Assembly: GCF_900110455.1 (NCBI RefSeq)
Contig: NZ_FOIS01000001.1
Coordinates: 1 to 64,000, forward strand
Length of the DNA: 64,000 bases
Direction: 5' to 3'
Source: Natrinema salifodinae
GTDB taxonomy: Archaea > Halobacteriota > Halobacteria > Halobacteriales > Natrialbaceae
Part shown: piece after piece, positions 13,670 to 63,584 of the stretch
Numbering within the stretch: the stretch's first letter is position 1
Layout: every line of letters begins with the position of its first letter
The notes under the pieces: model-generated
What the model was told of the DNA's origin: nothing
The model's database searches: none
Seen by the model: only the letters and a program-made list of their open reading frames with translations
Made by a program: the position numbers and the translations under genes

Positions 13670-15325
13670 TCAGTCCGCGGGGTGGACGTCAGTTACCGTT
13701 CCGACGCCCTTGCTTCGACCTTCGCGGAAGACGAACTTCTGGCCCTCTTCCACGAGATACGGGCGGAATTTGAACCGGACGGTGGTCTTGCCCGTGTCGC
13801 CTGGCAGCAGCCGGCCGTTTTCGGGATAGAAGGCGGCGGCTTCGCCGATCGTCTCGAGGTGGACGACGGGTTCGTACCCCTCGCCGATACGGGTCGGGTG
13901 GTTGAGCACCATCACCTCGGCCTCGAACTCGCGGATCGGCTCGGGGTCCGCGTCCCGCGGGAGCAAGACCATTCCGCGCTCCATGGCGCTCTCCTTGATC
14001 CCCTTCAGAGCGATGCCGACGATCCGGCCCGCTTGGGCCTTGTCGACCCGGTGGTAGTGCATCTCGATCGAGCGGACCTCGACCTCCTGGAAGCGGCCGT
14101 CTGGCATGGGACCGATCAGGAGTTCGTCGCCGGCCTCGACCTCGCCGGCCATCACCGTTCCCGAGGCGACCGCGCCGACGCCGGTCACCGAGTAGCTGCG
14201 GTCGACGTACATTCGGAACTCGCCGGTGTCCTGGGCCGTCTTGGGGAGCCGATCGAACAGTTCGTCAAGCGTGCCCAGGCCGTCCATCGTGATGGCGCTG
14301 CTCTCGACGATCGGGACCACCCGCTCGCTGATCTCATCGATCGCGGCGTCGACGCCGTGGCGGGCGATCCGCAGCGGCGACTTGTCGACCTCCCGGAGGA
14401 GCCGCTCGACCTCGCGTTCGACCTCCTCGACGCGCTCGTCGTCGACCAGGTCCGTCTTCGTGATCGCGACGATCGTCGGCAGGTCGGTGGCCAGCAGGAC
14501 GCCCAGGTGCTCCCGCGTCGTCCGCGTCGGGCCGTCATCGGCGGCGACGACCAGCAGGCCGTAGTCGAGCTTCTGGCCGACCAGGCCGCGGATCGTCGTC
14601 CGGAGCCAGGGCTCGTGGCCGACGGTGTCGACGAAGGAAACGAGCCGGTCGGCCTCCTGGACGACCTCGGCGCGGTCGGCCTTGCGGTTAGGATTGCGAA
14701 CGCGGACGGGGCCCTCGTCGTCGAAGCCGTAGACGGCGTAGGAGAGGTCGGCCGAGAGGCCACGCTCGACCTCGTGGGGCTGGACGTCGAGGAACGCGCG
14801 GGTCGCGCCGTCGCCGTCGTCCGGTTTCCCGGTCACCAGCGAGCCGACGAGCGTGCTCTTCCCGTGGTCGACGTGGCCCGCCGTGCCGACGACGACGTGT
14901 TCGTCGTCCGTCTCGAGGACGCCGCCCTCGCGGACCTGCGCGACCCCCACTAATCCACGCCCGGACGTCTCCGACGCTCGGTCTGCTTCGGACTCCGCGG
15001 CGTCCGAAACGCCGTTGACGCCCCAGGTCTGGACGTCTTCGATGTGTGCGTCGGCCTCCTCGGCCAGCAGGGAGAGGACGTCCATCGTCTCGGAAAAGGT
15101 GTCGGGATCGACGCCGGCCAGGCCGCCGTCGTCGGTGACGCCGACGACGTACGTCGCCTCGCCGTCGCCCGAGAGCAGGCGGTGTCGCAGTTGGGCGGCC
15201 AGGCTCTCCCGCCGTCCGCCCTCGAGGTGGACGTCTCGTGACAACCGCTCTTTGAATTCGACGTTGCCACCGTCCTGTTCGCCACGGTCCAGGGCCCGCT
15301 CCAGAAGGGCCCGGTCACGGCTCAT
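13670..15325 (-). CDS. GTPBP1-like translational GTPase
   Basis: A 551-residue GTPase related to EF-Tu/EF-1A and the GTPBP1/2 group. An N-terminal domain of about 140 residues (GNVEFKERL...VVGVTDDGGLAGVD) precedes the G domain: G1 GHVDHGKST, G3 DTVGHEP, G4 TKTD (the usual N is T), then beta-barrel domains II and III ending in FVFREGRSKGVGTV. GTPBP1 proteins act in translation and mRNA surveillance; the archaeal role is unknown. The ATG at 15325 starts SRDRALLERALD; a TTG nine codons upstream would have to be read through an inverted repeat and is not preferred. Confidence 0.85.
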   Translation of the reverse strand: MSRDRALLERALDRGEQDGGNVEFKERLSRDVHLEGGRRESLAAQLRHRLLSGDGEATYVVGVTDDGGLAGVDPDTFSETMDVLSLLAEEADAHIEDVQTWGVNGVSDAAESEADRASETSGRGLVGVAQVREGGVLETDDEHVVVGTAGHVDHGKSTLVGSLVTGKPDDGDGATRAFLDVQPHEVERGLSADLSYAVYGFDDEGPVRVRNPNRKADRAEVVQEADRLVSFVDTVGHEPWLRTTIRGLVGQKLDYGLLVVAADDGPTRTTREHLGVLLATDLPTIVAITKTDLVDDERVEEVEREVERLLREVDKSPLRIARHGVDAAIDEISERVVPIVESSAITMDGLGTLDELFDRLPKTAQDTGEFRMYVDRSYSVTGVGAVASGTVMAGEVEAGDELLIGPMPDGRFQEVEVRSIEMHYHRVDKAQAGRIVGIALKGIKESAMERGMVLLPRDADPEPIREFEAEVMVLNHPTRIGEGYEPVVHLETIGEAAAFYPENGRLLPGDTGKTTVRFKFRPYLVEEGQKFVFREGRSKGVGTVTDVHPAD

Positions 15326-58659: not shown

Positions 58660-59196
58660 CTACAGGGTCGCCCGACCGAGGCCGCCGTCGATCGTGACCG
58701 TGGTTCCGGTAATGAACTCGGAGCACGGCGCACTGAGGAACACGACCGTCTTTCCGAGCCCCATCGGGTCGCCCAAGCGTCCGACGGGAACGCTGTCCGA
58801 GCGGGCGGTCAGGCCCTCCTCGGAGGAATCGTACTCGCCGCGTTCGACGGCGTCCTCGATGAGCGATTCCACGCGATCGGTCTCGTGGGGACCGGGTAGG
58901 ACGGCGTTTACTCGCACGTCCGGCGCCAGTTCCCGCGAGAGCGTTTTTCGAGGCCGACGACGGCCATCCGAACCGAGTTAGAGAGGACGAGACCGTCGAT
59001 AGCTTCCTTCACGCTGCGTGAGGTGATGTTCACCACCGTCCCGCCGCCGTTTGCCTGGAGCGCGTCGGCGCTTTCCCGGACGAGGCGGACGACGCTCATC
59101 ACGAGGAGTTCGTGTGCGTCGTTCCAGTCCTCGTCGGTCGTCTCGAGGAACTCGCCGCTTGGCGGCCCGCCGGCCGCTCCGGCGGGTCGGCGGGCG
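58660..59196 (-). pseudogene. SDR remnant, 5'-truncated and frameshifted, in frame behind usp
   Basis: Reading from 59196: AGGPPSGEFLETTDEDWNDA, then TVVNITSRSVKEAIDGLVLS and MAVVGLEK; at the T5/A5 run 58944-58948 one base is missing and homology goes on in another frame, SRELAPDVRVNAVLPGPHET to ITGTTVTIDGGLG. The N-terminal 70-80 residues with the cofactor motif are lost. The remnant is in the same frame as the universal stress gene, only its TAG stop (59199-59201) between them. This SDR type has LVLSNSVR at the YxxxK position. Confidence 0.85.
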
Positions 59197-59817: not shown

Positions 59818-59842
59818 CGCCAGCACCCTTCAATCGGAAGGC

Positions 59843-60781
59843 ATGGCATTGTCAGCCGACCAGGTGCAGGAGCACCTCCGCGGCGTCGCCGCGGGGCTCC
59901 TCACGCCGCTGGACGACGATCGCGAGATCGAACACGAGAAGTTGCGCGAAAACGCGACATTGCTCCACGAGGCGGGTATCGAGACGTTCCTGGCGACCGC
60001 GAACATCAGCGAGTACCACTCGCTGACCCGGCGCGAACGGGTCGCCGTCGCCGAGACGGCCGTCGAGGCGCTCCCCGCGGACGCGTGCGTCCTCGCCGGC
60101 GTCGGCGGAAGCACGGTCGACGCGACGGAACTCATCCGCGAATACGATCGCATCGGCGTCGATGCGATGATGATCATGCCCCCGGACCACACCTACCTCC
60201 ACGAAGAGGGGCTCCTCGAGTATTACCGCACGCTCGCGGCGAGTACCGACCAACCGCTCGTGCCGTACGTCCGCGGGTTCGATCCGTCGGTCGAGTACCT
60301 CGGCGAACTCACGCGGGTCGACGGCGTCGCCGGAATCAAGTACGCGCTACCGGATCCCGTGAAACTCGGCGCCGGCGTCGCGGCGGGCGACGACGACGTC
60401 GTCTGGGTCGACGGCCTGGCCGAACCGTTCTCGGTCGCCTTCTGGGCGGAGGGCGCGGAGGGCTTCTCGGCCGGCGTGAGCAACTTCCGTCCGGAGGTCG
60501 GCCTGGAACTGTTCGACGCGCTCGAGAACGGCGACTGGAAACGCGCCCGCGAACTGCGGAACGTCTGCCTCCCCTATCAGAACTTCCGCGACGAGCGCGG
60601 TGAGAACAACGAGATTCCTGGTGCCATCAGCATCCCCGCGGTTAAGAAGGGTCTCGAGCTCGCCGGTCTTCACGGCGGCACCGTCCGGGAACCGATCCGC
60701 CCGCTCTCCGAGGCGGACGAACGGCGAGCCGAAGAACTCTACAGCGAACTCGACGACAATATCGACCGCCTTATCGAGTGA
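59843..60781 (+). CDS. DapA/N-acetylneuraminate-lyase family protein
   Basis: A 312-residue TIM-barrel enzyme. GLLTPLDDDREI at the N-terminus, TANISEYHSLTRRER in place of the pyruvate-binding GTTGE loop, the conserved tyrosine region PLVPYVRGF and the Schiff-base lysine in VAGIKYALPD. The family makes or breaks bonds to 2-oxoacids (dihydrodipicolinate synthase, KDG aldolase, 5-dehydro-4-deoxyglucarate dehydratase). The altered loop argues against lysine synthesis; a catabolic aldolase or dehydratase fits its neighbours. The frame extends upstream to 59720 without homology. Confidence 0.88.
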   Translation: MALSADQVQEHLRGVAAGLLTPLDDDREIEHEKLRENATLLHEAGIETFLATANISEYHSLTRRERVAVAETAVEALPADACVLAGVGGSTVDATELIREYDRIGVDAMMIMPPDHTYLHEEGLLEYYRTLAASTDQPLVPYVRGFDPSVEYLGELTRVDGVAGIKYALPDPVKLGAGVAAGDDDVVWVDGLAEPFSVAFWAEGAEGFSAGVSNFRPEVGLELFDALENGDWKRARELRNVCLPYQNFRDERGENNEIPGAISIPAVKKGLELAGLHGGTVREPIRPLSEADERRAEELYSELDDNIDRLIE

Positions 60782-60855: not shown

Positions 60856-60868
60856 ACTACAATGTAGT
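60856..60868 (+). promoter_or_regulatory. Palindrome at the TATA position of the LDH/MDH gene
   Basis: ACTACA-A-TGTAGT, a perfect 6-base inverted repeat with a 1-base centre, covers -33 to -21 relative to the ATG, where the TATA box should be. It is a good candidate operator. Confidence 0.55.
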
Positions 60869-60871
60869 CGA

Positions 60872-60888
60872 GTGCCACACTGTGGCAC
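60872..60888 (+). promoter_or_regulatory. Palindrome touching the start codon of the LDH/MDH gene
   Basis: GTGCCACA-C-TGTGGCAC is a perfect 8-base inverted repeat with a 1-base centre and ends at the base before the ATG. Together with the palindrome 3 bases upstream it fills the whole core promoter. Confidence 0.6.
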
Positions 60889-61845
60889 ATGCACGTAACG
60901 GTCATCGGTGGTGCCGGGGCAGTCGGGTCGACCGTCGCCTACACCCTCGCAACGACGGTTCCGGACGTGGAGCTTCGCCTGGTCGACGTTGCGGACGACG
61001 CCGCGGCCGGCCACGCGACCGACGTAGAGCACGCGATGAACCACGATACGCACGAGGTCGGACGCTCGATCGGCTCCCACGTTAGCTGGGGCGCCGGGCC
61101 CGTGACGACGGCGGAGCCTGGCCCGGACGCCGTTCGGGACACCGATTGTCTCGTCGTCGCCTACAACGTCTCGCGGACCGACGATGCCGTCGGCCGCGGC
61201 GGACGGGAGAGCTACTACGAGAAGAACCGGCCCGTCGCGGACGACCTCGGCGACTGGATGCGTGGCGCCGACCCGCGTCCCGTCGTCGTAGTGACGAATC
61301 CGGTCGACCGGATCACGGATTGCCTCTGGCGGAACTCCGGCTGGCCACGGGAGTCCTTCGTCGGCTACTCCCTCTCGGAGACAGCCCGTGCCGTCGCCGA
61401 GATCGGTCGTATTCGGGACGTCGATCCGCACACGGTTCACTGTCCGATGATGGGCGAGCACGGGGAACACCTCGTGCCCGTCTTTTCGAAGGCGACCGTC
61501 GGGGGAGACCCCCTCGAGCTGTCCGCAGCGCAGCGTCGCCAGGTCCTCGATTACGTCCGGGACGTTCCGTACGACGTCATGCGACAGCGGGGCGCGGCGG
61601 AGTCGTCCCGATGGGTGTCGGGACGGGGCGTGGCCGCGGTGGCCCATTCGATCCTAACGGGCGGCACGACGGCGCCGATCTGCCTGTCGGTGCCGTTGGC
61701 CGGTGAATACGGATACGAAGACGTGAGTATGAGCGTCCCGGTCGTCCTCTCGTCCGACGGCTGGGATCGGATCGAACGCTGGTCGCTGTCCGACCAGGAA
61801 CGGGAACTCCTCGACGCGGCGTACGATCACCTCGCTACTGACTGA
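60889..61845 (+). CDS. Lactate/malate dehydrogenase family enzyme
   Basis: A 318-residue enzyme of the LDH/MDH fold. Cofactor motif IGGAGAVGSTVAYTLATT (glycines kept), VVTNPVDRITDCLW with the usual NPVD, and the catalytic histidine in MMGEHGEHLVPVFS. The substrate-recognition part YNVSRTDDAVGRGGRE departs from both standard lactate and malate loops, and LSETAR replaces LDSAR, so the substrate may be an unusual 2-hydroxyacid. Two palindromes occupy its promoter, suggesting tight regulation. Confidence 0.87.
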   Translation: MHVTVIGGAGAVGSTVAYTLATTVPDVELRLVDVADDAAAGHATDVEHAMNHDTHEVGRSIGSHVSWGAGPVTTAEPGPDAVRDTDCLVVAYNVSRTDDAVGRGGRESYYEKNRPVADDLGDWMRGADPRPVVVVTNPVDRITDCLWRNSGWPRESFVGYSLSETARAVAEIGRIRDVDPHTVHCPMMGEHGEHLVPVFSKATVGGDPLELSAAQRRQVLDYVRDVPYDVMRQRGAAESSRWVSGRGVAAVAHSILTGGTTAPICLSVPLAGEYGYEDVSMSVPVVLSSDGWDRIERWSLSDQERELLDAAYDHLATD

Positions 61846-61934: not shown

Positions 61935-63584
61935 ATGACAGTTACAGTTGGTGCTGCCGTAATCGATTGTCTCGTCGACGAAGGGATCACGACGCTGTTC
62001 GGCATCCCCGGTAAGCAAACGCTCCCGATGAACGAGGCGGTCGCCGACCGGGACGACGTCGAGTTCGTGATGGCGCGCCACGAAACGGTCGTCTCTCACA
62101 ACGCGTGGGGGTACGCGGAGTCGAGCGGCGAGATGGCCGCGACCGTCGTCATTCCCGGACCGGGGGATATGAACGCGATGAACGGGCTGAAGAACGCGTT
62201 CAACGACTGCACGCCGCTGATCCACATCTCGGTCGAGACGGAGCCCGAGATCCGCGGCGGCGACGGGATCCACGAGACGCCGCCCGACACCTACGACAAC
62301 GTCGTCAAGGAGAACATCCTCGTGGAGACACCCCAGAGCACAGTCGCGGAACTCCGGCAGGCGATTCGGATCGCTCGGACTCCGCCGAAGGGGCCGGTCC
62401 GAATCGGAATCCCGAAGAATTTCCTGCCGATGGACGTCGAACTCGCCTCGACCGGCGACGCACGTCCCGCGGCCGCTCCGTCTGCCCCCGACCAGGCGGT
62501 GTCCGCGGCCGCGTCGCTGCTGGCCGACGCCGAACGCCCCGTCGTCGTCGCGGGCGGCGGCGTCCGATCGGCCGAAGCGCCCGCCGCGCTTCGGGACGTC
62601 GCGGAACGCCTTGACGCGCCGGTGGTTACGACGTACAAGGGCAAGGGGACCTTCCCTGAAGACCACCCCTTGTCGGCGGGCGTTCTCTGCGGCGGGTCGA
62701 GTACGGAACTGCAGGCGTTGTTGAGTAATGCGGATGCCGCCCTCGGCGTCGGAACCGACTTCGACGCGGTAAGCACGGGCAAGTGGAGCGTCGATCTCCC
62801 CGACGACCTCGTCCACGTGTCGCTGGACGCATCCGATATCGGAATCGGGTACGATCCGGCGGTCGGTATTGCGGCGGACGCCGCCCAGACGCTCTCCGCG
62901 CTCGCGGACGCGTTGGCGAACCGAGCCGTCCGGAGCGAACCGGGGGCCGAACGCGCGGGGGCAGTCCGCGAGTCCGATCGGGACCGGATCGCGGACCTCC
63001 AGAACACCGACGAGTCGCCACTGCCGTCCGTCGCCGCGCTCGACGCCGTTCGTACCGCAGCCCCGAGGGACGCTATCGTAACGGCCGACGCCGGCGGCTC
63101 TCGCGTGTGGACTGTCGTGACGTTCCCGGTATACGACTGCCGCGACTACGTCAATCCGGGATCGTGGGCGACGATGGGGTCCGGGCTCCCGTCGGCGATC
63201 GGCGCCAAGCTCGCGAATCCCGACCAGCAGGTTCTCACCGTCGTCGGTGACGGTGGACTGATGATGAGCGTCCACGAACTCCACACGCTCGTCGCGGAGG
63301 ACATCGACGTCACCGTCGTCGTTCTCAACAACAGTGACTACGCGATCATCTCCGAAGAGGCGGAGCGAAACTATCGACTCCCCACGAGCGAGTACGGCTG
63401 GACCGACGCGCCGCTGGACTTCCAAACCATCGCTGACGGGATCGGCCTGGCGTCTCAGTACGCCGAAACGCCCGCAGAACTCGAAGCGGCCGTCACTGAC
63501 GCCCTCGAGAGCGACGGACCGACGCTCGTCGAAGTACCGACCGATCCCGCGGAACCCCAGGCCGGCGTCAGGATGACGGAGTGA
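61935..63584 (+). CDS. ThDP-dependent enzyme (acetolactate synthase / 2-oxoacid decarboxylase family)
   Basis: A 549-residue thiamine-diphosphate enzyme with the usual three domains. The Pyr domain has the catalytic glutamate in MARHETVVSHNAWGYA; the central domain is near 185-330; the PP domain has the ThDP motif VVGDGGLMMSVHELHTLVAE in part, ending VVVLNN. It is of acetolactate synthase/benzoylformate decarboxylase type, acting on a 2-oxoacid. A regulatory small subunit gene is absent, against biosynthetic acetolactate synthase. It closes a run of 2-oxoacid enzymes and has a palindromic promoter. Confidence 0.9.
   Translation: MTVTVGAAVIDCLVDEGITTLFGIPGKQTLPMNEAVADRDDVEFVMARHETVVSHNAWGYAESSGEMAATVVIPGPGDMNAMNGLKNAFNDCTPLIHISVETEPEIRGGDGIHETPPDTYDNVVKENILVETPQSTVAELRQAIRIARTPPKGPVRIGIPKNFLPMDVELASTGDARPAAAPSAPDQAVSAAASLLADAERPVVVAGGGVRSAEAPAALRDVAERLDAPVVTTYKGKGTFPEDHPLSAGVLCGGSSTELQALLSNADAALGVGTDFDAVSTGKWSVDLPDDLVHVSLDASDIGIGYDPAVGIAADAAQTLSALADALANRAVRSEPGAERAGAVRESDRDRIADLQNTDESPLPSVAALDAVRTAAPRDAIVTADAGGSRVWTVVTFPVYDCRDYVNPGSWATMGSGLPSAIGAKLANPDQQVLTVVGDGGLMMSVHELHTLVAEDIDVTVVVLNNSDYAIISEEAERNYRLPTSEYGWTDAPLDFQTIADGIGLASQYAETPAELEAAVTDALESDGPTLVEVPTDPAEPQAGVRMTE

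Follow-up and report, generated by a model that had tools for sequence, protein, structure and literature searches.

The promoter of an LDH/MDH-family dehydrogenase gene in Natrinema salifodinae carries two tandem perfect palindromes that are versions of one rare word, with 18 bp between their centres. This shared word is the unusual feature; adjacency of two palindromes alone is not rare. The pair may well be an operator in which both sites bind the same dimeric regulator; site 1 lies at the TATA/TBP position, site 2 at the start, and the effect would most likely be repression of the gene. The element is real and probably functional, and of an ordinary kind; it is unconserved, lies at one promoter only and has no known regulator. 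The features of the region, in coordinates of the window (the whole stretch of 64,000 nucleotides that was analysed), are:

59828..60781, plus strand: upstream gene of the dihydrodipicolinate-synthase (DHDPS) family; the nearest models are 5-dehydro-4-deoxyglucarate dehydratase, below cut-off
60856..60868, no strand: palindrome 1 (operator-like site O1), ACTACA-A-TGTAGT = ACTACAATGTAGT, perfect and odd-centred, at −33 to −21 relative to the ATG, the TATA position according to the sequence and the A+T peak of homologues
60857..60885, no strand: shared dyad CYACA-N-TGTRG in two copies, centres at 60862 and 60880, 18 bp apart
60872..60888, no strand: palindrome 2 (operator-like site O2), GTGCCACA-C-TGTGGCAC = GTGCCACACTGTGGCAC, perfect and odd-centred, at −17 to −1, the presumed initiation region
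60889..61845, plus strand: LDH/MDH-family dehydrogenase, 318 aa, with Pfam Ldh_1_N and Ldh_1_C; start from the homologue alignment
61935..63584, plus strand: downstream gene for a thiamine-pyrophosphate (TPP) enzyme, preceded by an ordinary TATA-like promoter of its own

The palindromes had been pointed out in an earlier note on this DNA, and their coordinates, 1-base centres, 3-base gap and termination at the base before the ATG are all confirmed in the sequence. The 3-bp spacer reads CGA, and the ATG at 60889 directly follows the last base of palindrome 2 (60888). This ATG is the right start, as Met1 of the homologues aligns with it in the protein alignment. The exact double palindrome, which ends immediately before the ATG, counts in favour of a tandem operator. 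So does the 17-mer of palindrome 2, which occurs once in the whole genome and thus rules out a mobile or repeated element.

When 31 distinct sequences upstream of homologues are compared, A+T content is highest at −33 to −23, where the TATA box of a leaderless transcript would lie. Palindrome 1 is at this position, so the two sites occupy the TATA and start positions of what appears to be a leaderless-type promoter; the dehydrogenase gene is presumably leaderless. The homologous promoters thereby support the placement of palindrome 1 at the TATA position proposed in the earlier note; with dyad sites at the TATA and start positions, the element has the layout of an archaeal core-promoter-overlapping operator. 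Leaderless transcripts make up 72% of the protein-coding transcripts of Haloferax volcanii (PMC4983044), and in Sulfolobus acidocaldarius a dimer of the GntR-family repressor YtrASa, which has a very small regulon, covers the transcription start (PMC6746942). These precedents and the location of palindrome 1 over the TATA region of the 31 homologous upstreams count for a tandem operator. As with the semi-palindromic archaeal site of YtrASa, palindrome 2 lies over the (presumed) transcription start; the YtrASa operator, however, has a 14-bp core with flanking half-sites and is located downstream of the TATA box, whereas the present promoter has two full odd-centred palindromes, the first of which covers the TATA position.

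In the proposed mechanism, each copy of CYACA-N-TGTRG would be bound by a dimer of the same helix–turn–helix regulator. The dimer on site 1 would cover the position of TATA and TBP, and that on site 2 the points where transcription and translation of the leaderless gene begin. With TBP/TFB and RNA polymerase thus kept off, the dehydrogenase gene would be repressed until the regulator was released by an inducer, probably one of the acids broken down by the local pathway. Judging from the sequence, a real protein-binding operator is probable; if it is one, the position of its sites makes repression very likely. A narrower version is tentative: a local regulator with a single target would bind a yet undescribed class of site (CYACA-N-TGTRG, two dimers 18 bp apart) and occlude TBP and the start-codon region of a leaderless LDH/MDH-family gene of acid catabolism.

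The earlier note had called such dense symmetry unlikely by chance, an argument that is weak by itself, since the count of palindrome pairs equals the chance expectation. In 244 kb of the same genome there are 191 odd-centred palindromes with arms of at least 6, and four pairs lie 13–40 bp apart, against about 4.2 expected from the density. What stands of the argument is the rare core common to both palindromes. The pattern YYACANTGTRR is found at 5 places in the 4.27-Mb genome, two of them at the dehydrogenase promoter (9 places for the reversed control pattern), and the stricter CYACANTGTRG at 4 places, again with two at this promoter; the expected number of further palindromes with at least four of the five core bases of CCACA within 40 bp is 0.0003–0.001. 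The CYACA-N-TGTRG motif was defined after the sites had been seen, so these figures carry a post hoc penalty and the rarity evidence is good, not overwhelming. The shared core counts for the tandem operator; the chance frequency of neighbouring palindromes and the post hoc motif count against it.

The same figures bear on the possibility that the pair is accidental: a GC-rich genome yields many palindromes, and a reader scanning a window will pick a striking pair near an ATG. The pair count fits this, as does the lack of conservation of the pair. So does one other gene, alone among about 930 ORFs in 960 kb from haloarchaeal relatives, whose start is preceded within 45 bp by two palindromes (with GC-only arms). 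The shared core and its tiny expected number of neighbours speak against it, as do the five genomic places of YYACANTGTRR, which also show that the sites are not frequent elsewhere in coding DNA; by the earlier note, such frequency would have been a refutation. Coincidence is rather unlikely. Two near matches in the genome, C4:475731 (beside an SSS-type transporter ORF) and C5:84623 (upstream of a CoxG-like ORF), were rejected as further sites, their counts being within chance.

A role at the RNA level has also been considered: transcripts reading through from the preceding gene would fold into two hairpins ahead of the AUG, and these would restrict translation or processing. The predicted hairpins, just 5′ of the AUG, have stems of 5 and 7 bp with 3-nt loops, and both stems are present in the minimum-energy fold. 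The region as a whole, however, folds no better than shuffled sequences (z −0.84), the hairpins would lie outside a leaderless transcript and no U-run follows them for termination; this explanation is highly improbable.

Homologues of the dehydrogenase were collected at 38 loci by a scan of genome contigs with an alignment, a single-protein scan having given none. Palindromes of this kind are absent upstream of homologues whose enzymes are 38–54% identical. In paralogue-level homologues the sites are thus not conserved, which the earlier note would have counted as refutation; no true orthologue in the same context was found, so conservation neither confirms nor excludes a function. The absence from homologous promoters nevertheless counts against the tandem operator, as does the lack of a second promoter with the site in a genome-wide pattern search. 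A family-wide operator was rejected: with up to two mismatches, the dual pattern occurs in 125 family genomes only here and, among the 124 others, in three unrelated iteron-like arrays beside ParA/HerA-type genes. The long palindrome with one mismatch is found in 5 other genomes of the 391 class genomes scanned, fewer than the reversed control. The arrays, each about 0.5–1 kb long, consist of degenerate TACAC-N-GTGTA palindromes, are largely non-coding and partly phased by 9 bp, and were found in three same-family genomes near a ParA-family and/or HerA-like ATPase gene (L033 ~640–1660, L035 ~670–1790, L036 ~1180–1650); they resemble a partition centromere or an origin array.

The dedicated repressor predicted in the earlier note is unsupported: no regulator gene was found beside the dehydrogenase promoter, which counts against the tandem operator, and the site is missing from other promoters of the genome, from homologous upstream regions and from related genomes. 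No IclR-family gene adjoins the promoter; the nearest HTH_IclR match, at C1:83397, is 22.5 kb away. A 181-aa protein with an HTH-looking N-terminus is encoded at C1:72398-72943 on the minus strand, beside an acyl-CoA synthetase-type gene. Pfam and NCBIfam gave no match for it, and PDB only implausible ones; it could be a member of an undescribed Lrp-like regulator family. The motif is absent upstream of its gene.

The main functional alternative to a repressor operator is a haloarchaeal IclR-type activator, which might assist TBP/TFB from site 1 where the TATA sequence is weak. The TATA-position sequence of the dehydrogenase promoter (CTACAATG) is a poor match to the published haloarchaeal TTWT motif. 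The downstream TPP-enzyme gene is preceded by an ordinary TATA-like sequence (CCTAAAGCTTTA), as are its relatives, which makes the dehydrogenase promoter the odd one in the cluster. XacR, GacR, RhcR and MscR, the IclR-type regulators so far known from haloarchaea, are reported to activate catabolic genes (PMC11519228). They share with the present case the kind of organism and the catabolic gene setting, and there are 34 HTH_IclR-type matches in the genome, several of them in the catabolic region C1:83-146 kb. In another family genome, a one-mismatch copy of the long palindrome (GTGCCACAATGTGGGAC) is located between IclR-like and AMP-ligase-like genes, just after the IclR-like gene (L085:592-1700). 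This copy may, however, be a product of chance, as hits in the 391-genome scan were fewer than for the reversed control; moreover, the other IclR loci of the present genome were found to be free of such a site, and the start site covered by site 2 is an unusual place for an activator. Activation is improbable, and repression through a tandem operator is preferred.

Bacterial KdgR/IclR-type sites have an ACA-N-TGT core. The present palindromes share this odd-centred core, and the neighbouring DHDPS-family gene resembles 5-dehydro-4-deoxyglucarate dehydratase; the outer bases are A/T-rich in the bacterial sites, in contrast to CY..RG here.

The description of the gene product as an LDH/MDH-like enzyme holds: Pfam domains Ldh_1_N and Ldh_1_C place it in the LDH/MDH superfamily, and its alignment with homologues contains invariant GEHG and NPxDR stretches. 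It scores below every cut-off of the NCBIfam MDH and LDH equivalogs, including that for halophilic malate dehydrogenase (NF041314; 130 bits against a cut-off of 550). TRAP-type transporter genes precede the dehydrogenase cluster; a UxuA-like gene and two genes of the mandelate-racemase/enolase family follow it. Genes of the DHDPS and enolase families also lie close to a homologue of the dehydrogenase that a Haladaptatus plasmid carries, in support of a function in acid catabolism. By these sequence comparisons, the dehydrogenase is an uncharacterised LDH/MDH-family member in what appears to be an acid-catabolism cluster. A further genome of the same genus, G015, has the DHDPS and TPP genes (83% identical) side by side and neither dehydrogenase nor operator between them, indicating that the dehydrogenase and its promoter were gained here or lost there.

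If real, the operator would be a compact archaeal module for repression that is easy to test, and one more case of the known archaeal repression by core-promoter blocking; it would also open a way to the function of an LDH/MDH-like enzyme that is uncharacterised and present across Halobacteria. Elsewhere in the window, short-chain dehydrogenase remnants in two overlapping frames on the minus strand (58660-58917 and 58908-59102) look like a frameshifted pseudogene. Another odd palindrome of this genome, GTGACCACA-T-TGTGGTCAC, with 9-bp arms, lies over the stop codon of a SecY-like gene (L032:1497-1515; C3 ~14944-14962) and is possibly a 3′-end element.
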